DNA from: Lampris incognitus
Lineage: Eukaryota; Chordata; Actinopteri; Lampriformes; Lampridae
NCBI RefSeq assembly: GCF_029633865.1
Contig: NC_079213.1
Coordinates: 109,354,582-109,418,581 of the forward strand
Reading direction: 5' to 3'
Length of the DNA: 64,000 nt
Part shown: positions 3,019 to 57,556 of the stretch, piece after piece
How positions within the stretch are numbered: the first letter of the stretch is position 1
How the letters are laid out: each line of letters starts with the position of its first letter
Position numbers and translations under genes: made by a program
Notes under the pieces: generated by a model
The model's input: only the letters and a program-made list of their open reading frames with translations
What the model was told of the DNA's origin: nothing
Databases searched by the model: none

Positions 3019-3479
3019 CATTTACGAGGGGCGTCCGGGTAGAGCAGCTCTCTATTCCGTTGCCTACCAGCACGGGGATCGCCGGGTCGAATCCCCGGTG
3101 TTGCCTCCGACTTGGTCGGGCGTCCCTACACACACAATTGGCCGTGTCTGCGGGTGGGAAGTGGGCACGTGTCCCGGTCGCTGCACTAGCGCCTCCTCTG
3201 GTCGGTCGGGGGGGCCTGTATGGGGAAGGGGAGGGGGGTAGTAGCGTGATCCTCTCACGCGCTACGTCCCCCTGGTGAAACTCCTCACCGTCAGGTGAAA
3301 AGAAGCGGCTGGCGACTCCACGTGTATGGGAGGAGGCACGTGGTAGGTCCGCAGCCCTCCCCGGATCGGCAGAGGGGGGCGGAGCAGCGACCGGGACGGC
3401 TCGGAGGAGCGGGGTGATTGTTGGCCGGGTACAGTTGGTGAGAAGAAGGGGGGAAATCCTTTATAAAAACAAAACAATG
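3019..3479 (+). mobile_element. tRNA-derived SINE (family A), near full length
   Basis: A tRNA-like head starts GGGCGTCCGGGTAG at 3028, with a B-box-like GGTCGAATCCCCGG near 3083. A conserved body follows, containing GGTCGGGCGTCCCTACA, CTAGCGCCTCCTCTGGTCGG and GGCTGGCGACTCCA. Near-identical flanks of about 23 bp (TTGAAT(C/T)GTCTGAT(A/T)TGAGAATA, left from 2992 and right from 3480) are a retroposition-type target-site duplication. Other copies are at 30541, 40227 (antisense), 50291/53838 and 57176/60191. Confidence 0.85.
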
Positions 3480-6917: not shown

Positions 6918-7270
6918 GGCGGCACGGTGGCGCAGTGGTTAGCGCGGTCGCCTCACAGCAAGCAGGTCCTGGGTTCAAGCCCCGCGGTAGTCCAACCTTG
7001 GTGGGTCATCCCAGGAGTTTGCATGTTCTCCCCGTGTCTGTGTGGGTTTCCTCCGGGGGCTCCAGTTTCCTCCCACAGTCCAAAGACATGTAGGTCAGGT
7101 GAACTGGCAATACTGAATTATCCCTAGGTGTGTGTGTGTGGGGGGGGGGGTGGGGGGCCTGTAATGGCCTGGCAGCCTGTCCAGGGCGTCTCCCCGCCTG
7201 CTGCCCAATGACTGCTGGAATAGGCTCCAGCATCCCCGTGACCCTGAGAGTAGGATAAGCAGTTCCCTGT
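6918..7270 (+). mobile_element. tRNA-derived SINE (family B), sense copy
   Basis: It begins GGCGGCACGGTGGCGCAG and continues GTGGTTAGCGCGGTCGCC (A-box region). A B-box region follows, GGTTCAAGCCCCGCGG, near 6971-6986. The typical body includes TCCTCCCACAGTCCAAAGAC and CCCTAGGTGTGTG. It ends near the GGATAAGCAG tail. It lies back to back with an antisense copy from 7421. Confidence 0.85.
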
Positions 7271-12648: not shown

Positions 12649-12754
12649 GATGTTGAATCTGACTAATACAGGACCAGTGCTGACCATGAAGAGGCAAGGT
12701 CAGCACTGGTCCTGTATTAGTCAGATTCAACATCTGACCTTGCCTCTTCATGGT
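12649..12754. repeat. Perfect 37-bp inverted repeat with second overlapping inverted repeat
   Basis: Arm 12649-12685 (GATGTTGAATCTGACTAATA and on to GTGCTGACC) is the exact reverse complement of 12698-12734, with a 12-base loop ATGAAGAGGCAA. A second exact inverted repeat, 12683-12703 (ACCATGAAGAGGCAAGGTCA plus G) with 12734-12754, overlaps the loop and one arm. The arrangement is A-B-A'-B'. Confidence 0.9.
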
Positions 12755-19105: not shown

Positions 19106-19898
19106 CAGAGGTAGCTAACCATGTGCCTTGGAGAGCCACGTGTATGCAGGTTTTCATTCCAACCCGACTCCACACAAGGTGATTTCACTGATACATTCTT
19201 CCTCTGGTTGAAGGGTTGCTAATCAGTGAAGGTTGATGCTAGATCCAACGGGGTGTAGGTATGGAAGTAGATGTGATTGGTTGTTGGTTAGGGTTAAGGT
19301 TTAAACTCTTTTTGAATTTCCATTCTTAGCAAGCATTAACGTTAGCTATCATTACAGTATGATCTGGCAATGTTAAGGTCAGTTGTAAGCTAGCTAGCTA
19401 AATGTTTCAGTGTGCATCGTTTGTTTCAAGTCAGTGTGCTCCCAAGGTTCCGCAATGTCTATTGGCCGATGCAACAGCCAATCATGGCTGGTTGGCTGTT
19501 GCGTCTAGCGTCAACCATCAGTGAAATCACCTGGTGTGGATGTCTGTGAATGTTCTCATTCATCCAGGTCATAATTATCCAAAGGATTTGAATCAAGTGC
19601 AATTGGACTTGGTTATATATCCGTGAAGACGTTTTGCCTCTCATCCAAGAGGCTTCATCACGACTCCAAAGAGGCTAAATATCTGAGTTTCATCACCAGC
19701 CAGTCAGACTAGCTTGGTCTAGTCAGAAAGGCACGAACTGATGAAGCCTCTTGGATGAGAGGCGAAACGTCTTCGTGGATATATAACCAAGTCCAGTTGC
19801 ACTTGATTCAATTCCTTTGGATCACCTGGTGTGGAGTCTGGCTGGAATGAAAACCTGCATACACATGGCTCTCCATGGTACATGGTTAGCCACCCCTG
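19106..19898. mobile_element. hAT-type DNA element with exact 8-bp duplication
   Basis: The ends read CAGAGGTAGCTAACCATG at the left and CATGGTTAGCCACCCCTG at the right. Inverted similarity extends roughly 75-90 bp inward (GTATGCAGGTTTTCATTCCA against its complement). An exact 8-bp duplication CTCTAATA occupies 19098-19105 and 19899-19906. Removing the element rejoins the L2 frame. No transposase is present. A nested foldback lies at about 19578-19820. Confidence 0.9.
19578..19820. repeat. Foldback repeat, ~80-bp arms
   Basis: TATCCAAAGGATTTGAATCA with AGTGCAATTGGACTTGGTTA and ACGTTTTGCCTCTCATCCAA is mirrored by GATGAGAGGCGAAACGTC and AACCAAGTCCAGTTGCACTT near 19752-19820. The arms differ at several positions. 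It has no coding capacity and is nested in the hAT element. Confidence 0.8.
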
Positions 19899-27574: not shown

Positions 27575-28510
27575 TACTCAAAGAAAGTTGAATCAGTTCA
27601 TCTGGATACAACGTTTATTGACCGATACGTTTCATCACTCAGCTAAATCTAATTTTACCCGGATTATTGGGCATGCATCAAGACCAATAGTTGTATTATA
27701 GCAATTGCTTTATTAACTTTATCCTTACATTCAGCACAGCAAGCATGAAAAAAGTAAAACATTGCTGTGCCTTGGTTGTTGACTTGTCTAAAACATATGG
27801 AAATGAAGCCATGGCGTGTCAGGCCAGGACTCCGCAGCCTACACCCATCTACAGGCCAGTGGCCACTCTTTCTAGGATGAGGATGTGCACATCCTAGGGA
27901 GGAACGCTGGTTTGAACGGGGAGTCACAGAGGCCATCTATGTTAAGAGGGAATGGCCATCCTTGAACCGGGGGAGGGGGGGGGGGCTAAGCGTACATCTG
28001 TCACCATCTTCCAATGCTGTGATTGCAAACATACCCGAATCCTCTGTGAATAGTACACATGGCCATTGAAGCGCTAGTTAATGCTCACGCCCATATTTGC
28101 ACATGAAACTGGTTGTTGTTTTCAGTCGCTATGCCACTGTATTGTTTATAAGGGTGGGGATTCCTGCAGTCGGTTGAGACTGAAGATGTGATGAAACGTT
28201 TCTCTCAATAAACGTTGTATCCAGATTGATTCACCTTTCCGTGCTTTCCTTACCTGGATTATTGAGCATGCATAAAGACAAATAAAAGCCATGATTTACT
28301 AAACACCAACATCCCCATTTGCCACAACAAAATGTTTCTATGAGTTGATGCGGTTTCATTCTCATACGTGAGGAAGTCATTAGTGGATCACATTCCCAAA
28401 CATCAAAGGAGATTGAATCAGTTCATCTGGATACAATGTTTATTGACAGAGAAATCTCTCAATAAACATTGTATCCAGATGAACTGATTCAACCTTCTCT
28501 GATTTTGCCA
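27575..28510. repeat. Cluster of foldback-family repeats
   Basis: Three pieces of one family are present: 27588-27640 (TTGAATCAGTTCATCTGGAT and ACGTTTATTG), 28180-28245 (GATGAAACGTTTCTCTCAAT) and 28404-28503. The last is a near-perfect palindrome with arms of about 48 bp around a GACAGAGAAATCT centre. The sequence between them is unassigned and includes a poly-G run near 27972. Confidence 0.7.
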
Positions 28511-30540: not shown

Positions 30541-30911
30541 TCTACCAACAGGGGGATCGCTGGTTCGAATCCCCACGTTACCTCCGGCTTGATCGGGCGT
30601 CCCTACAGACACAGTTGGCCGTGTCTGCGGGGGTGGGAGGCCGGACGTGGTTGTGTGTCCTGGTCGCTGCTCTAGCGCCTCCTCTGGTAGGGGGTAGCGT
30701 GATCCTCCCATGCGTTACACCCCCCCTGGTGAAACTCCTCACCGTCAGGTGAAAAGAAGCGGCTGGCGACTCCACATGTATGGGAGGAGGCATGTGGTAG
30801 TCTGCAGCCCCCCCCCCCCGGCTCTGAGGAGGGGGTGGAGCAGCGACCGGGACAGCTCGGGAGAGTGGGGTAATTGGCCGGATACAACTGGGGAGAAAAA
30901 GGGGGTGAAAA
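30541..30911 (+). mobile_element. SINE (family A), 5'-truncated
   Basis: The B-box region is present (CTGGTTCGAATCCCCACGTT near 30562), followed by the family-A body CTAGCGCCTCCTCTGGTAGG and GGCTGGCGACTCCACATG. The A-box part of the head is missing. Direct repeats AAATACAGTGG at 30528-30538 and 30912-30922 flank the insert. Confidence 0.8.
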
Positions 30912-30969
30912 AAATACAGTGGCATTACAACGCAAACCAACGATTGGCTTCATGTGCAAACTGCCGCGA

Positions 30970-36536: not shown

Positions 36537-39111
36537 GGTGTGTGTGTGAAGGTGTGTGTGTGAAGGTGTAGAGAAGCCTTTTGTCCGGTTTTATGAAGTT
36601 TATTTATTTTGCATGTTCAGAAATTCTTTTTTTTTCTTTTTGTCGCTGATAAGGGGAGGAGGAAGCAGGGGCCCACGGCTCCCATCCCTAACCAGGAAGT
36701 CCCCTTAGACAAGTATTACTTCACACTAGCAGATAACATGACAAGAACGGAAGATGCAGGGTTCCTGGGTGCGAAGGAACACCCAAAGTGATGTGCAAGA
36801 AGTGTAATGTACACCTCTGTTTCACAGCACAGAACTGCTTTTAGAAGTGGATCAGGAAGGCTCCAGCAAGGCTGGATCGTTGCAGCGGGTCGTTGGGGAG
36901 CGCAGCCGGAAAAGACACTCGGTGTGCAGCTACAAGCAGAGCTCGAGCGGTCTGGAGCCTCAGAACAGATGTTCAGTAGTGCGAGGTCGCCTTTCAGTGT
37001 GTGTCCCCTAACAATTGTAGTATGCCCCGGTGATGGAGGGGCAAAGACACCATCGTCCAAAAAAAAAGTTTTATCAATAAAATGTCACAAAATGGACCAA
37101 GAAATTATGTAGAATGATTTCTATCATGGTCCAAACATGTGTGCATTAGAGGGTTAAGAAAAATTCGGGCCAGTATTCCCTGTTGGCATTTCATAGTGTT
37201 TAATTTACATTAACTTTGTGTGTGTGTGTGTGTTTGTGCATGCGTAAGTACCAAGATGCACCAAGGCTCCTACCATGCCTCCCTGTGGGCAGCCCACAGT
37301 AACTTGGGTTTCGCGACCCCTGGCTAAATCAGTAGTAGGGGCTGTCGGTGCTGCAGTGGTCTCTAGAGGTGTTTTCACCAACCACTGCCCCACTGCCACG
37401 TGGGTAAACCTTGGGAGGGACGATGGCTAGGGTAGTAATCCCTGAGCTCAAATCTGCAGCCGGGGATAGACACAGGCGGAGTCCAGCAGAACGGACCACC
37501 GGCGGTCCCTTGCAGCTCCAGCCAGACATAGGCCGTCATGAGCTCCTCATGCCACTGGAAGTCTGTCTGGCGGAGCAAAAGTGGTGGGAGTAAGGACTGT
37601 GCACCCACACTCTCACCCTAATCCTTTTCTTGTGCAAGCCCCTTGCTTCCTCCCTGTGGTGTTATGGAATGGTGGCAGTTACAGGCCAAGGATGTGGCTG
37701 GGAGTGCCTAGCCAAACCATGTACACAGGTGGCAACAGAGTGATGGCGGTTGAGATTGCGAGATGGAGCAACGTGTCCCCTCGGTCGGCAGCTTGCGTTG
37801 CATCTGAGCAGCACCATACTGCTGACTCCCCACGGGGAATGACCTGGTAAAGGTGGTCCAAAATTGTCTGCTCCTTCAACTCCGGACGGTAAGCCGCAAC
37901 CATCAAAGCACCCCTCTCTGTGGTCCAAGAACCTTCTGGGCTCCCCTTACCCCACCTGTGGACTAGTGGCTCACGCATTGGCCTCCGTAGCCAATGTATT
38001 GGCTAACTGTGTCACGTGACTTGAATCGAATTTTCCCACACCAACGCTGCTCCCTTCATGAAGTTAATATTAAACCGCCACTTCGTTCTTTGGTTATCTA
38101 GTTAGTTTTTAGTGAAAAAATAACAGATTTTTTTCAGGTCAATGCCAACAAAAGTTGGTAAGGGGACTGCCGTGAGGAAGTTTTTTTGGTAAAAGTAGAT
38201 GTTTGGGGGATTGCCAGGGACTTCATCCAGCAAGACAGAGACAGTTCTTCCGCAATATTTAAAGGGCAGTGGTGGGTTTGACGTTTCTTTTTAAATTCTA
38301 TATGATAGGATTTATTCTTTAGTGCAGGGGTGTCAAACTCCAGGCCTCGAGGGCCGCAGTGTCTGCAGGTATTTATTGCAACCATGCAGTACACCACCTG
38401 ATTAAACTAGTTCCTTTCCCTCCTTGATCCAGGAGGTGAGCTAATTAGTTAAATCAGGTGGTGTAGTGCACGGTTGCAACAAATACTTGCAGACACTGCA
38501 GCCCTCGAGGCCTGGAGTTTGACACCCCTGCTTTATTGTCTTAATTATGTGTTAGCTGTAATATCGTAATGATCATAAAAGTGGCTGCAGAAGTCAAGTC
38601 GGTTCAAAGTCGGGGAGCGAGGGGGTGGGGGTGGTGGCTTTGTGTGTGCGTGGGGGGGGGGGGCTGATGGGCCCCACCAACTCGAAATGTGTTCTGCAGT
38701 CCATGCACAGTTCAGCTGTATACTAGGTTTTGACCTCGTCTTATAATTTCTTTATTCTCTCTTATCTGCTGAGGTGGCTGGTTCCTACTGGCCACATGGT
38801 GTGAACAAGAAACTGTGCCGCAGAACAAACTAAGAAAAGGAACAGGGTTGAAAATCCACTCCCGTGTCACCCTCAGTAATCTGTACAGCTAATAAGAGTG
38901 TGTTTTATGTGTTTCATCCCTCCAGATTAATGTTGACCACCATGTAAGAGAGAAGATAAAGAAGTCCTTGGTGAAGCCAAGTAGCTCCTGCTTTGATGAA
39001 GCCCAGAGACATGTTTACCAGCTCATGGAAAGAGACTCCTGTCCCAGGTTCCTCCACTCCGACAACTATTTGAGTCTGACACGCAAAACCAGGAGCATGT
39101 GGCACATGTAG
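32988..39111 (+). CDS. rgs1: Regulator of G-protein signalling, R4 family, rgs1-like
   Basis: The coding exons are 32988-33064, 33346-33441, 33542-33594, 33868-34034 and 38926-39111 (stop TAG). All introns are GT-AG, with phases 2, 2, 1 and 0, and the product is 192 aa. RGS proteins accelerate GTP hydrolysis by Gi/Gq alpha subunits at the plasma membrane. Residues ~69-182 form the RGS domain: SEFSEENVEFWLACEDF (87-103) with the Galpha-contact pair Glu92-Asn93, KAEEIYQEF (114-122), CFDEAQRHVYQLMERDSCPR (153-172) with Leu164, Asp168 and Arg172. KAEEIY and the order of genes favour rgs1. The usual Trp just before the domain is Leu here, and the Asn that contacts Galpha (RGS4 Asn128) is Ser145. 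The N-terminus (MPKLLFSKICRYEFKDLIDN) is basic/hydrophobic, suitable for membrane contact. Intron 4 is 4.9 kb and full of repeats. The start is chosen because the ATG at 32980 leads to an early stop. Orthology by name is probable, not proven. Confidence 0.88.
35290..35650 (+). mobile_element. Diverged family-B-type SINE in intron 4
   Basis: GTGGTTAGCGCTGTTGCCGC (A-box region) and GGGTTCGAACCCCAGG (B box) are followed by GTGTGGGTTTCCTCCGGGTA and CCGGTTTCCTCCCACC. Its 3' end differs from the other copies and ends in a short (CTTT)n run at 35629-35645. Just upstream (35230-35320) are small direct and inverted duplications of GTTGCTAACCA and CAAGAGGCAGAGG. Confidence 0.7.
36462..36568. repeat. 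(GT)n microsatellite
   Basis: About 36 GT units are followed by GTGTGTGTGAAGG-type variant units, in intron 4 of the rgs1-like gene. Confidence 0.95.
36650..36860 (+). pseudogene. piggyBac-type transposase C-terminal fragment (tentative)
   Basis: One frame at 36774-36852 reads TPKVMCKKCNVHLCFTAQNC followed by F, a stop, and KWI. The spacing C-x2-C-N-V-x-L-C-x6-C-F resembles the C-terminal cysteine-rich finger of piggyBac transposases. Upstream, GRRKQGPTAPIPNQEVPLDK is open in another frame. It is short and broken, so the family assignment is tentative. Confidence 0.4.
37220..38040. other. Intron 4 segment, unassigned
   Basis: A GC-richer block with short ORFs in several frames (37205-37978) contains CATGTACACAGGTGGCAACA. 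Its composition differs from its surroundings, so it may be an old retroelement fragment. No domain could be recognised. Confidence 0.3.
38325..38530. mobile_element. 206-bp hAT MITE
   Basis: The ends read CAGGGGTGTCAAACTCCAGG at the left and CCTGGAGTTTGACACCCCTG at the right, perfectly inverted over at least 20 bp. They are flanked by CTTTAGTG (38317-38324) and CTTTATTG (38531-38538), a 7/8 match duplication. It has no coding capacity and lies in intron 4. Confidence 0.9.
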
Positions 39112-40226
39112 CCATGACATGATGACTGAGTCCACTAAAATATATTTGTATAACAACCTGCTGGTAGATGGTTGCTTGTACTTCCTCAAAATTTTCCTTT
39201 TTTTCTTTTGTGGTACTAACCAAACATTTGCATATGTCAAAAGTCCAATACCCGAAAGTGATAGACTGCATTCATAACAGACTTTAGGCCCAAGACAAAT
39301 CCTCAATTTCACCATTTCATCTTGTTATAATAGGATCTCAGTGGGGTATAAAGTGGGCACATTCGGGTATTAGACTTTAACAGCCTGCATCAGGACCATG
39401 ATCACTTTTTGGCAAGTCTTGTGCTTCAGAAAGTTGCTGAATAAGCAAAATGTGTTGTACTGTGTAAGAGGTAAAGCCCAGGGTTTTACTTGACTTTTCC
39501 CCACGCCAAGTATAGATGATGACCAGATCTGGCCGTACATAGCTTTGCTATTGTTGTTCTGCTTAAAAGCGTTATTTTATTTCTGTTGTTGATGTTTATC
39601 ATCACAGTGAAACACTGAGAACGCTGAGACTGAGAAAATTTGTTCTTCCCCTCCAACGGAAAAAAAAAAATTCCTTCATGTGTTTTTTTTTTGTGGGTTC
39701 GGGGGTGGGGGGTATTTGTAAATGTGATAAAATGGTAAAGAGTACATTGGAGCAGTGATTAATGAATGTGATAGTCATGCTGAAGAATTGAGAAGTCATG
39801 TGGAAAAGTAAAGTCACTTGGTGAACTGGGCTGTGTTACTTGGATGGTTGTGGATGAGGGTAGACGTGGTTGATAGACTGGAGTTTTCCGGTAAGGTGCA
39901 GTATGTCCGCAAGTGGCGTTCAGAGGGATAAGAGATGTGACCCCCCCCCCCCCCCCGCCTGCATGTTTCGTAGCCATCACTGTCAAAATTAAAAGTACTG
40001 TGGGAACGTTTTCCATCTCTCTTTCTTCACAACTTTACAACACATGCATCACAGTACACACACTGTTGTTGTTACGACTTCCACTGGAGTTGTCTTGATG
40101 CACGCTCAATAATCCAGGTAAGGAAATCAGTTCATCTGTGCACAATGTTTGCTTATTTATTTATTTAGTTGGTTATTTAGTTAGTCAGTTAGTTGTTTGT
40201 TTGTTTGTTTGTTTGTTTGTTTATTT
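39112..40226. other. rgs1-like 3' flank, nothing firm
   Basis: No canonical AATAAA lies in the first 800 bp after the stop. An ATTAAA at 39988-39993 is the first plausible variant poly-A signal. A poly-C run lies at 39942-39956. A foldback-family fragment (GCTCAATAATCCAGGTAAGG) is at about 40105-40145, and a (GTTT)n run is at about 40191-40222. Confidence 0.4.
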
Positions 40227-40612
40227 TTTTCTCATTTCCCCCCCTAGTCGTACTTGGCCAATTACCCTATTTTCTGAGCAGTCCCGGTCCCTGCTCCACC
40301 CCCTCTGCCGATCCGGGGAGGGCTGCAGACTACCACATGCCTCCTCCGATACATGAGGGGTCGCCAGCCGCTTCTTTTCACCTGACAAGTGAGGAGTTTC
40401 GCCAGGGGGACGTAGCGCGTGGGAGGATCACGCTATTCCCTCCTCCAGCCCGCACAGGCGCCCCGACTGCCCAGGAGAGGCGCTAGTGCAGCGACCAGGA
40501 CACATACCCACATCCGGCTTCCCAACCGCAGACACGGCCAGTTGTGTCTGTAGGGACGCCCTGACCAAGGTGGAGGTAACACAGGGATTTGAATCGCCGA
40601 TCCCCATGTTTT
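40227..40612 (-). mobile_element. SINE (family A), antisense copy
   Basis: This is the reverse complement of family A: CTCTGCCGATCCGGGGAGGG, GGGTCGCCAGCCGCTTCTTT, AGGCGCTAGTGCAGCGACCA and TTGTGTCTGTAGGGACGCCC. It ends in the B-box complement GGGATTTGAATCGCCGATCC and the head remnant near 40600. Confidence 0.85.
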
Positions 40613-40640: not shown

Positions 40641-40862
40641 GTGTGGCACGCTCGATGGTGTTTTAAGGCCCCAACGTACTCTTCAAGGCAGCGCTGCATG
40701 GAAGGCACTCCCCGCCCCCTACAGTTTCAGCCAATCACAGCACTGGCGCTAACCCTAACCCTAACCCTAACCAGTGCTGTGATTGGAGGAAACTGTTGGG
40801 GGCGGGGAGTGCTGCCTGGAAGAGTACGTTGGGGCCTTAAAACACCATCGAAGGTGTGGCAC
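40641..40862. mobile_element. Foldback element with telomere-type repeat in its loop
   Basis: Arms 40653-40746 and 40771-40850 are inverted copies (CGATGGTGTTTTAAGGCCCC against its complement). The arms differ by a small indel (left AGCGCTGCATGGAAGGCACT). The loop at 40747-40770 carries the vertebrate telomere motif as about four CTAACC units (40749-40772). A perfect 9-bp direct repeat GTGTGGCAC flanks the structure at 40641-40649 and 40854-40862. Confidence 0.85.
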
Positions 40863-42127
40863 ATTGGCACCTATCATATCTTTATCTATCGGATAATGCA
40901 TGTGACGGAAAAGCCCTCTGGGACTGAATTGCGATTTAAGGCTGTATAAAATGTGCCCTGACTTGGACCTGACTTGACAGCTTTAGGCTTTCACAACTAC
41001 TTTATTCCCAACTGGATAAATTATCACTGAGATATACGTCTGTGGTGGGCAATACGTCAAAACGGTGTGCTTATATTTATACTTTCCTGTGGAGGACAGG
41101 CATTAGTCAAAGGTTTCCACGGTCTGACCACGCAGGGCGTCTGCTCAGTGTGATGGATGTAAGTACTCCACTAATTAGGTGGGGGAGATGAGTCCCCCGA
41201 GCCAGTGAGAAGGGTCACAACGTAGGGGAAAAAAAAAAAAAACGACGGCTGCCACCCATGACTCGATTCTGTAAATGGCCTTATTCCTGAAATTGTTCCT
41301 TAAAAAGGCATACCGAGGAAGCTAAGAATATCTCCGTGGTCTGACCTAGAACACTGGCTGGTGGATTGGAGTCATCAGACAACCTGATGCGTGACAAATC
41401 AGACTGAATGTGGGCTCTTGTCCGGAGAATAATCTCATCACCCACACACAGATATTTTAGTGAAATACAATTAGATATGCCCTGCTAAAGTATTACTTTG
41501 ATAAAAGTCCCTCCTGTATTTTGCTACTCACGTAAAAGACATTACGTAGAAAAAGTGGATGATGGGGGGATAACCACTCCAACACCCATAAGCGGCATCA
41601 TAAACAAGAAGAAGAAAAAAAAAACAGTAGGTTCCCCTCATATATCACCTCACCCGACCCTAAACGTATGAGCGTGCAGTTAAACGGGCTGATGGTCAAC
41701 CCATTTCTTAGTAAACTTGTTCCATACTTCTGTGAAGACTTCCTTTTATCAAACTAGTACATGTGATGGCGCAAAAACAGTGAGATTTTATCTTTGAAAG
41801 ATGTTTAAAAGTATCTATAGAATGGAAATGGTTGCAGAGGAGCAGCTCACATTGGTACCCCAGTACGGTACTTGTGTTTACTTACTTTGTTCTTAGGTAC
41901 TCTCAACCCGAGGCCATGGACAAACAGTGCAAAGTTGATATCTAGCCTTACCCTTCACTTCAAACACAGGGTCAAATTTAGATGTGCCCACGGTAAATGC
42001 TAATTACCATTTAAATCAAATTTCCATGGAGAACAGATCAAAGACATGTTGATGTCAACTTTTGGAAAAATATGAAAACCGCCCAAACCTCTTGTCTTGA
42101 CGCATGCTCAATAATAAGCCAGGTGAG
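40863..42127. other. Intergenic, nothing identified
   Basis: Unique-looking sequence between the rgs1-like and rgs13-like genes. No exon or repeat terminus was recognised. Confidence 0.4.
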
Positions 42128-42270
42128 AAAATCAAAGAAGGTTGAATGAGTTCATCTGGACACAACGTTAATTGCTGTATCCAGTTCAACTGGATAACGT
42201 TGTATCCAGTTCATCTGGATAGAATGTTAAACGTTGTGTCCAGATGAACTGATTCAACCTTCTTTGATGC
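42128..42270. repeat. Foldback-family palindrome
   Basis: ATCAAAGAAGGTTGAATGAG at the left is mirrored by CTGATTCAACCTTCTTTGAT at the right, with inner repeats of TGTATCCAGTTCA(A/T)CTGGATA. This is the same family as at 7800 and 28404-28503. Confidence 0.85.
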
Positions 42271-49027: not shown

Positions 49028-49407
49028 TTCATTCATTCGTCCATTATCCAAACCGCTTATCCTTACTTAGGGTTACAGGGATGCTGGAGCCTATTCCAGC
49101 AGTCATTGGGCGGCAGGCGGGGAGACACCCTGGACAGGCTGCCAGTCCATCACAGGGCCCACACACACACACACATTCACACACGCATTCACACCTATGG
49201 ACAATTTAGTACAACCGATTCACCTGACCTACATGTCTTTGGACTGTGGGATGAGACCGGAGCACCCGGAGGAAACCCACGCAGACACAGAGAGAACATG
49301 CAAACTCCACCCAGGATGACCCCCAAGGTTGGACTACCCCGGGGCTCGAACCCAGGACCTTCTTATTGTGAGGCGACTGCGCTAACCATTACGCCACCAT
49401 GCCGCCT
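49028..49407 (-). mobile_element. tRNA-derived SINE (family B), antisense copy
   Basis: It runs from ATTCATTCGTCCATTATCCA to CGCTAACCATTACGCCACCA. It contains GGACTGTGGGATGAGACCGG, the B-box complement GGGGCTCGAACCCAGGACCT and a short (CA)n. It is full length by comparison with the copies at 6918 and 7421. Confidence 0.85.
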
Positions 49408-50961: not shown

Positions 50962-51553
50962 GTCAGGCGTAGGGTTGGGCATCGAGGACCGAAAATTCCG
51001 ATTCCAAAGGAATCGTTCAGAAATTCAACTTTCCATTCTGCCTATCGGTCCCTAAATGCGTTTCACTCGCGCTAAAGTTAGTTTCAGCTTCCGTGGTGGC
51101 GGCACGCAGCTTCCGTACTTTCCGCCTCCGCAAGTTAAACGCGCGCCATCACGGACCAGAGCGAGCGGCGGCCGGAGGCGTGGCTTGATTTTGGCCGTGG
51201 AAAAAATGAGGGGGTGGCACCGCGCAAGGCCTGTGGCCAACATGGTTTCCCGCAAGGGAGGACGCACACTACGGCCCAACACCGTCGCCTACACGGTGTC
51301 CAGATGAACCAGCGTGCCGCGTTTGACACGTCGCGCCGGTCTCCATCTCCCGCCTCGGCGTCCTCCTCAGCCAACCCCGAGCAAACGGCAAGCAGCACCT
51401 CGTCGCGACTGGGTAAGTGGAAAATTACTACCACTTTTTAGCCCAGTTTATGCTCCAAATGTCGGCTAGCAGACAAAAAGGTGTCTCGCATTTAGGCTTG
51501 TCGCAATGTCGCTGACCGTACATACAGCCAGCCTGAGAAGGCAGACATGCTAA

Positions 51554-51926
51554 TGTAAACTACTAATAAAACACGTTAGCCCCTAGCTAGCGGGTCTGGC
51601 CCTTTAGCCGAGCGGTTAGTGATGTCGCCTTGTGGTGCAGTACACCCCGTATCGAATCCCGCACCGGGCAAGAAAATAACCGGTTACATTGGTGGCAGCG
51701 GTGGGATCCGGAAGTGTGCAGATCCTCAGAAGTCTCTTCGGAGCGCGGGAAGAACAAAGCGCGAGGGCGCGCTTCCGGGGAGGGTGACGACTGTAAACTA
51801 CTAATAAGACACATTAGCCCCTAGCTAACGGTTCTGAACCTTTAGCCGAGCGGTTAGTAACGTCGCCTTGTGGTGCAGTTCACCCCGTATCGAATCCCGC
51901 ACCGGGCAAGAAAATAACCGGTTACA
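51554..51926 (+). mobile_element. TRIM-like LTR retrotransposon with tRNA-like LTRs
   Basis: Two 135-bp direct repeats, 51554-51688 and 51792-51926, both begin TGTAAACTACTAATAA and end ACCGGTTACA (TG...CA). They differ at about nine positions. A CTAA duplication flanks the element (51550-51553 and 51927-51930). Directly after the left LTR, one base in, is TGGTGGCAGCGGTGGGAT. As I recall the tRNA-Leu (AAG/TAG) 3' end plus CCA, this is its complement over 18 nt, a primer-binding site. A purine-rich GGGGAGGG-type tract precedes the right LTR. The internal part is only 103 bp and non-coding. Each LTR holds TAGCCGAGCGG, a perfect A box, and GTATCGAATCCC, a near B box, about 50 bp apart. Reverse transcription would depend on enzymes from another element. 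Confidence 0.85.
51590..51668 (+). promoter_or_regulatory. tRNA-like Pol III promoter in left LTR
   Basis: The A box TAGCCGAGCGG (51606-51616) fits TRGCNNAGNGG at every position. The B box GTATCGAATCC (51650-51660) fits GGTTCGANTCC at nine of eleven. Their spacing is normal for a tRNA gene, but the acceptor and anticodon stems are not convincingly complete. The right LTR repeats the arrangement. Confidence 0.6.
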
Positions 51927-52458
51927 CTAATCTTTCTAAACAAGAGCTGTTTCTAATTTAAGGAGTTTAATACCTGGTAGTCCGGTGTCGGTACTTGATC
52001 CACTCGCCCTACCGGATGTGCTGGGGGGTCCTGCGACTACAGATGACGTCACTACTCCATGCGTTATGATTGGGTAGGGGCTAGTTCAGTTTAGGAACGG
52101 CGGGAAACAGTAGATCGACGGTTAGACGCAGCTCGCACCCTTACCAACCAACTCTATGTCGACGTGGGTTGTAAAAAAAAACCACACAGCTAAATAACTA
52201 TAAAGCTTGCAACATAATCCGTGACGTCATATGTAGTCGAAGGACCCCGAGTCGATATTGTACCTGAGCAGAAATGGAACCCACACCGGACCAGGGTGTG
52301 ACTGTGTCTTTTGTTCAAGTCAATTCAAAACTTGACTGCAGACTCAGGGTCCATAACAGACAAAGACAAATAGGTAAAAGACAAACCCCAGACAATACAC
52401 AGAGGAAACACAATAAAATAACATAAATGGAACAAGTCATTGTGTTATAAGAAGGCAG

Positions 52459-53570
52459 CTATACATACCAGTGGTCCCACTGCCGGGATTGGTAGCGTGT
52501 GGCACTGAATCTTGTATTAGTTAAACTCTTGATGATTACATTATCAGAGTCATTGAGCCGGCAAATAAATGTATACATGAGCCTTCTTAGAAGAGCCTGA
52601 AAGGTACCGACTCCTGCAGCCACAAACATTTCACCTGCACTACACCATCTAGGTCTTGTTAGTAGTATTCTCATGGCATCATTATAAGCTACTCGAAGCC
52701 TCTGTAAGCGTGCTTTTTTACAGTTTGACCACAGGGGGCAGTATAGAGTGGTGTACAATATGCTCTGAACGGACATCTTCACACTAACTGAACACACACC
52801 AAACTTGCGTGACAGAGTGTTTGCTTGTGCATAGATCATGCGGCATTGCCTATAAATATCATCATCGTCTGTCATTTACTACTACTACTTTCGGCTGCTC
52901 CCGTTAGGGGTCGCCACAGCGGATCATCCGTTTCCATTTCTTCCTGTCTTCTGCGTCTTCCTCTCTCATCGTCTGTCATTTGTTCAGTAATATAGTGCCC
53001 AAGATATTTCCCCTTATTACATACCACAAGATTATTATCAGACAATTTAAAATCAGGACATTTTAGATGATTGACCTCTTTGGTTCTGCAGATCATGACA
53101 ACACTCTTACTAGCGTTGTATTTGATATCATGCTCCACACCATACACACAACATATATCAAGGAGCTGCTGGAGACCAGCGCTACAGGGACTAAGAATGA
53201 CAAGGTCATCTGCATACATAATATGGTTCACCAAGGTATTACCAGTCATGCACCCAGTGTTACAGGCTTTCAGCTGCTTGGACAAATCATCTGTATATAA
53301 ATCGTAGAGAACTGGACGCAGAATTCCCCCTTGTCTGACACCATTGCTAACCCCAAATGGGGCTGAAACACCATAACCCCATTGCACTTGCATAGTGTGA
53401 TGGGCATACCAATAAGCCAGAATTCTCACAATGTATTTAGGCCCCCCTCTTTGACTCAATTTAACAAACAACTTTCTATGATTAACACGATCAAAAGCTT
53501 TAGAAGCATCAATAAAACACATAAGAACCGATCAGTTTTGGCCTCTATATTTGTTTACAATTTCCTTTAA
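52459..53570 (-). pseudogene. Non-LTR retrotransposon reverse transcriptase fragment
   Basis: The minus strand reads MCFIDASKAFDRVNHRKLFV from 53522 (RT motif A), SNGVRQGGILRPVLYDLYTD near 53345-53285 and NHIMYADDLVILSPC near 53232-53190 (catalytic YADD). GKYLGHYITEQMTDD then follows. After a small insertion it continues DIYRQCRMIYAQANTLSRKF and YCPLWSNCKKARLQRLRVAY to a stop near 52459. The core motifs are intact, the 5' end is missing, and the clade cannot be named with confidence. It lies within the hAT element. Confidence 0.8.
52878..52965 (-). mobile_element. 88-bp mini retroinsertion with 16-bp duplication
   Basis: ACTACTACTACTTTCGGCTG through GTTTCCATTTCTTCCTGTC to CTTCCTCTC is flanked by perfect 16-bp repeats TCATCGTCTGTCATTT (52862-52877 and 52966-52981). 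Removing it restores the LINE reading frame across MTDD. It is a sibling of the 62-bp insert at 10590, which stops earlier. Confidence 0.9.
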
Positions 53571-57175: not shown

Positions 57176-57556
57176 TCGGGCGTCCGGGTGGCATAGCGGT
57201 CTATTCCATTGCCTACCAACATAGGGATTGCTGGTTCGCATCCCCCTGTTACTTCTGGCTTCGTTGGGCCTCCCTACAGACACAATTGGCCGTGTCCATG
57301 GGTGGAATGCCGAATGTGGGTATGTGTCCTGGTCGCTGCACTAGCACCTCCTCTGGTCAGTCGGGGCACCTGTTTGGGGGGGGGGGGCGATGGGGATGGC
57401 GTGATCCTCCCATGCGCTACGTCCTCCTGGCGAAACTCCTCACTGTCAGGTGAAAGAGAAGCGGCTGGCAACTCCACATGTATCGGATGATGTGGTAGTC
57501 TGCAGCCCTCCCCGGATCGGCAGAGGGGCTGGAGTAGTGACCAGGACGGCTCAGAA
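57176..57556 (+). mobile_element. SINE (family A), left part, interrupted by hAT
   Basis: The head GGGCGTCCGGGTGGCATAGC and GTTGCCTACCAACATAGGGA is followed by the B-box region TGCTGGTTCGCATCCCCC and the family-A body. The SINE stops at GACGGCTCAGAA (57545-57556) and resumes at 60191 with GCTCGGAAGAGTGTGGTAAT. Confidence 0.85.

Follow-up and report, generated by a model that had tools for sequence, protein, structure and literature searches.

TRIMs with tRNA-derived sequence in their LTRs were named Helenus (TRIMp3) by Kojima 2024 (PMC10886601), and that paper supplies the comparisons made here. The scheme proposed for Helenus combines a Pol III promoter with LTR-type replication and, in animals, the help of an autonomous Gypsy element; Gypsy elements share the primer-binding site (PBS) region with Helenus, and Pol III use is, by the paper's own account, not experimentally validated. 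Helenus elements are 311-1263 bp long, the GGTTC of box B is conserved among them, animal families make 4-bp duplications, and vertebrate families are primed by tRNA-His, Leu or Lys (PMC10886601). Table 1 of the paper names 13 fish (coelacanth, sterlet, paddlefish, zebrafish, six cyprinids, a nemacheilid loach, a bagrid catfish and milkfish), and carp and goldfish are among the listed hosts. The zebrafish family LTR-11_DR is represented by 5575 LTRs and 2618 interiors, some of them in tandem arrays, and the question of whether such elements occur in many copies is answered in print for the Helenus class (PMC10886601). Our search of the literature on tRNA-like miniature LTR elements and Helenus found this one paper on the subject among the papers listed.

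We analyzed a 373-bp element in a 64,000-nucleotide stretch of Lampris incognitus DNA (the window). It is very probably a Helenus-group LTR retrotransposon, structurally complete and non-autonomous: a TRIM with tRNA-derived LTR sequence that would replicate by the cycle set out below. The LTR pair, the PBS match, the tRNA-likeness and the duplication are seen directly. The original prediction described a TRIM whose LTRs hold a Pol III promoter of tRNA type, drew a parallel with plant Cassandra, suggested a hybrid of SINE and LTR strategies, and knew of no described fish TRIM with tRNA-type boxes. We consider its reading the best one, and its structural side agrees with the features open to testing, but the class had already been described: the statement about fish was overtaken by Kojima 2024 (PMC10886601), where the mixed scheme is likewise proposed. 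The element either adds a member to the class published in 2024 or is one more copy of a family already known in it. Its features, in window coordinates, are:

51550-51553, no strand, left target site duplication CTAA, 4 bp
51554-51926, plus strand, whole element, 373 bp
51554-51688, plus strand, 5' LTR, TG...CA, 135 bp
51605-51615, plus strand, A box TAGCCGAGCGG of the 5' LTR
51611-51659, plus strand, tRNA-like stretch of the 5' LTR, for which the nearest of 16 reference tRNAs is tRNA-His(GTG)
51649-51659, plus strand, B box GTATCGAATCC of the 5' LTR, 2 mismatches to GGTTCRANTCC
51689-51791, plus strand, interior, 103 bp, too short for replication-protein genes
51690-51707, plus strand, PBS, 18 contiguous nt complementary to the 3' end of tRNA-Leu(AAG)+CCA
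51777-51784, plus strand, purine run GGGGAGGG, a polypurine tract candidate that ends 7 nt before the 3' LTR
51792-51926, plus strand, 3' LTR, TG...CA, 135 bp
51843-51853, plus strand, A box TAGCCGAGCGG of the 3' LTR
51849-51897, plus strand, tRNA-like stretch in the 3' LTR, scoring 35 against tRNA-His
51887-51897, plus strand, B box GTATCGAATCC of the 3' LTR
51927-51930, no strand, right target site duplication CTAA, 4 bp

The A and B boxes are separated by 33 nt in each LTR. Both boxes were correctly predicted in both LTRs, but the A box TAGCCGAGCGG, which had been called perfect, has 1 mismatch to the pattern that we used (TRGCNNAGYNGG), so that its perfection depends on the consensus chosen, and the B box GTATCGAATCC has 2 mismatches to our other pattern, GGTTCRANTCC. 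A box pair of equal quality appeared in 4/5000 dinucleotide shuffles of the 5' LTR. Across both strands of the whole window there are four such pairs, namely, those of the two LTRs and those of tRNA-headed repeats at 6928 and 57189.

Alignment of the 5' LTR to 20 references (the 16 tRNAs and four SINE heads) gave tRNA-His(GTG) as the best local match, with 37/50 columns and a score of 39. Among 1000 shuffles of this LTR, the top score was 34 against tRNA-His(GTG) and 36 against the best of the 20 references; a separate run of 500 shuffles peaked at 31. The 3' LTR scores 35 against tRNA-His, under the best-of-20 maximum of 36 from the 5' LTR shuffles, and the tRNA-likeness therefore depends on the 5' LTR and on the 3' LTR being its copy. 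With this weaker score for the 3' LTR, the locus carries the tRNA-derived LTR sequence that defines Helenus. The tRNA-like stretch of the LTRs is degraded and contains no intact tRNA gene: ARAGORN at normal settings found no intact tRNA in the element, and Rfam, with E values up to 10, matched no tRNA family in the 2501 bp or the 401 bp that enclose it. When introns were permitted and the threshold was relaxed, ARAGORN gave 214 candidates in the window. Three of these (numbers 171-173, of which two are on the minus strand) overlap the element; all 214 were dismissed as noise.

The window also contains two dispersed tRNA-headed families, probably SINEs (6918-7264 and 49051-49406; 3029-3405, 30542-30916, 40222-40610 and 57178-57555). 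We rejected their heads as the source of the tRNA-like part: when four copies were compared over their first 88 bp, two heads scored 26 and 22 (tRNA-His, 39) among the ten best alignments listed, and the other two heads fell outside those ten.

The plus strand of the element lacks TTTT, the nearest downstream instance being at 52309. We rejected this lack as a signal of selection, since 991/2000 shuffles also have no TTTT. It does mean that a Pol III RNA started in the 5' LTR would not end in the 3' LTR; such an RNA would traverse the 5' LTR and the interior, as replication needs, and have its 3' end in the flank. Strand transfer would probably remain feasible, because only the repeated part of the LTR would be needed. 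A bolder version of the Helenus reading, in our view unlikely, is a fish lineage beyond the published host range, with a tRNA-His-derived promoter, a terminator-less Pol III RNA ending in the flank, and a 3' LTR used from within. If true, a lineage of this type needs no defined RNA 3' end, which would make it a variant of the Cassandra scheme.

Degradation of the B box in both LTRs and the missing TTTT terminator would also suit a TRIM transcribed by Pol II, its boxes being left over, with no present role, from a tRNA gene or SINE inserted into an LTR in the past, and so would the unvalidated status of Pol III use in Helenus (PMC10886601). Against this, boxes are conserved across many Helenus families (PMC10886601), and none of the nine LTR differences falls in the two boxes, a weak argument because the boxes cover just 22/135 positions. 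We regard Pol II transcription with relic boxes as distinctly improbable.

Returning to the Helenus reading, the architecture that was predicted is confirmed. The two 135-bp TG...CA repeats around a 103-bp non-coding interior are there, identical at 126/135 positions (nine differences), with starts 238 bp apart and termini of TGTAA and TTACA. The predicted CTAA duplication lies immediately outside both ends; by our estimate, a 4-bp match would arise by chance about once in 256 cases (~1/256). The locus thus has the short non-autonomous plan of Helenus, two LTRs and a non-coding interior, and the 4-bp duplication (CTAA/CTAA) of its animal families. The PBS begins 1 nt after the 5' LTR, next to it as in Helenus, and the predicted 18-nt match to tRNA-Leu held on alignment: 18/18 positions agree with tRNA-Leu(AAG), while the longest match to any of the other 15 tRNAs of the panel is 6 nt. 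A candidate for the predicted purine tract, which in Helenus lies at the 3' end of the interior, is the run GGGGAGGG, but the interior ends GGGGAGGG-TGACGAC, and because TGACGAC intervenes, the run does not abut the 3' LTR.

A tRNA-derived repeat duplicated in tandem at this site, with no retrotransposon insertion, would account for the 238-bp period at the single locus seen, and tandem arrays are reported for LTR-11_DR (PMC10886601), but the repeats are bounded by TG...CA, the PBS lies 1 nt inside and CTAA surrounds the whole, which makes this explanation highly improbable.

Within the interior, 51731-51749 (AGTCTCTTCGGAGCGCGGG) resembles the variable arm of tRNA-Leu(AAG), also the PBS-matching tRNA, with 12 consecutive identities. 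Its score was equaled in 20/3000 shuffles against tRNA-Leu(AAG) and in 101/3000 against the best of 16 tRNAs, and we treat this apparent likeness as a curiosity. The predicted RNA fold of the interior is not unusually stable (50/200 shuffles were equally stable).

For a Helenus-group element at this locus, we infer Pol III use, a helper and mobility of the family, in a cycle as follows. TFIIIC would bind both boxes of the 5' LTR, and Pol III would initiate a short way upstream of its A box. The resulting RNA would cover the interior and extend into the 3' LTR, to the end of its tRNA-like part or beyond. tRNA-Leu would prime at the PBS beside the 5' LTR, and the first-strand DNA would jump to the part that is repeated in the 3' LTR. 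An autonomous element, probably Gypsy, would then supply the proteins that complete the copy and insert it, leaving a 4-bp duplication.

The K2P distance between the LTRs is 0.070 (6 transitions, 3 transversions), so this copy is not young; at an assumed rate of 4e-9 substitutions per site per year, its age would be about 9 million years. Neither the A and B boxes nor the last 46 bp of the LTR contain any of the differences, which proves little because there are only nine.

Upstream of the element, 51001-51420 is CpG-rich (observed/expected 1.37 in 51001-51200 and 1.0 in 51201-51400), and an ATG at 51304 is followed by a splice-donor-like GGGTAAGTGG at 51411, an arrangement resembling a promoter with a first exon; on that view the element, ∼140 bp downstream, would sit in intron 1. 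A Pfam scan of 10 ORFs gave a match in one, a reverse transcriptase fragment on the minus strand (52872-53531; RVT_1, E 1e-20). Elsewhere in the window there is an inverted pair of long repeats (2014-2836/58815-59472) with ∼95% identity and a 41-bp tandem array in each, and there are six palindromic, MITE-like stretches with full-length reverse-complement self-matches (12649-12734, 19577-19822, 28399-28506, 38324-38531, 40642-40863 and 42131-42268).

A search for further copies or an empty site found no second copy of the element or its flanks within the window, apart from a 28-bp match inside the right flank. Three element patterns had no match in viral contigs, two had none in prokaryotic genome contigs, and a distant blastn search had none in plasmids and phages. 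These collections may omit records of the window's own genome. In a control carried out on the viral contigs, a 21-base pattern from a repeat present four times in the window also had no match, and the viral blanks therefore say little about fish. We counted against the Helenus reading of the locus the GTATC of its B box, the gap after the purine run, the absence of TTTT, the 3' LTR score of 35 and the lack of an Rfam tRNA match, as well as the single copy seen and the absence of relatives from the searched collections.

Set beside the systems already described, the element is closest to fish Helenus (zebrafish LTR-11_DR and its relatives). Compared by their published description, both have two short tRNA-like LTRs, a non-coding interior, a PBS for a tRNA 3' end (Leu being among those of vertebrate families) and a 4-bp duplication, and 373 bp lies within the 311-1263 bp range. 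The box B differs, being GTATC in both LTRs here in contrast to GGTTC, which is typical of Helenus but not defining. The probable SINEs of the window (the families at 6918 and 57178) share tRNA-type A and B boxes with the element. Like plant Cassandra, it is a TRIM with a small-RNA-derived promoter in its LTRs; unlike it, Cassandra has 5S rRNA sequence and an RNA end in the 3' LTR (PMC10886601), whereas our element is without TTTT and Rfam gave no match, 5S rRNA included, up to E 10 in 51540-51940. As a member of a class itself already published, the locus offers a clean example of a putative SINE-type promoter joined to LTR-type replication.
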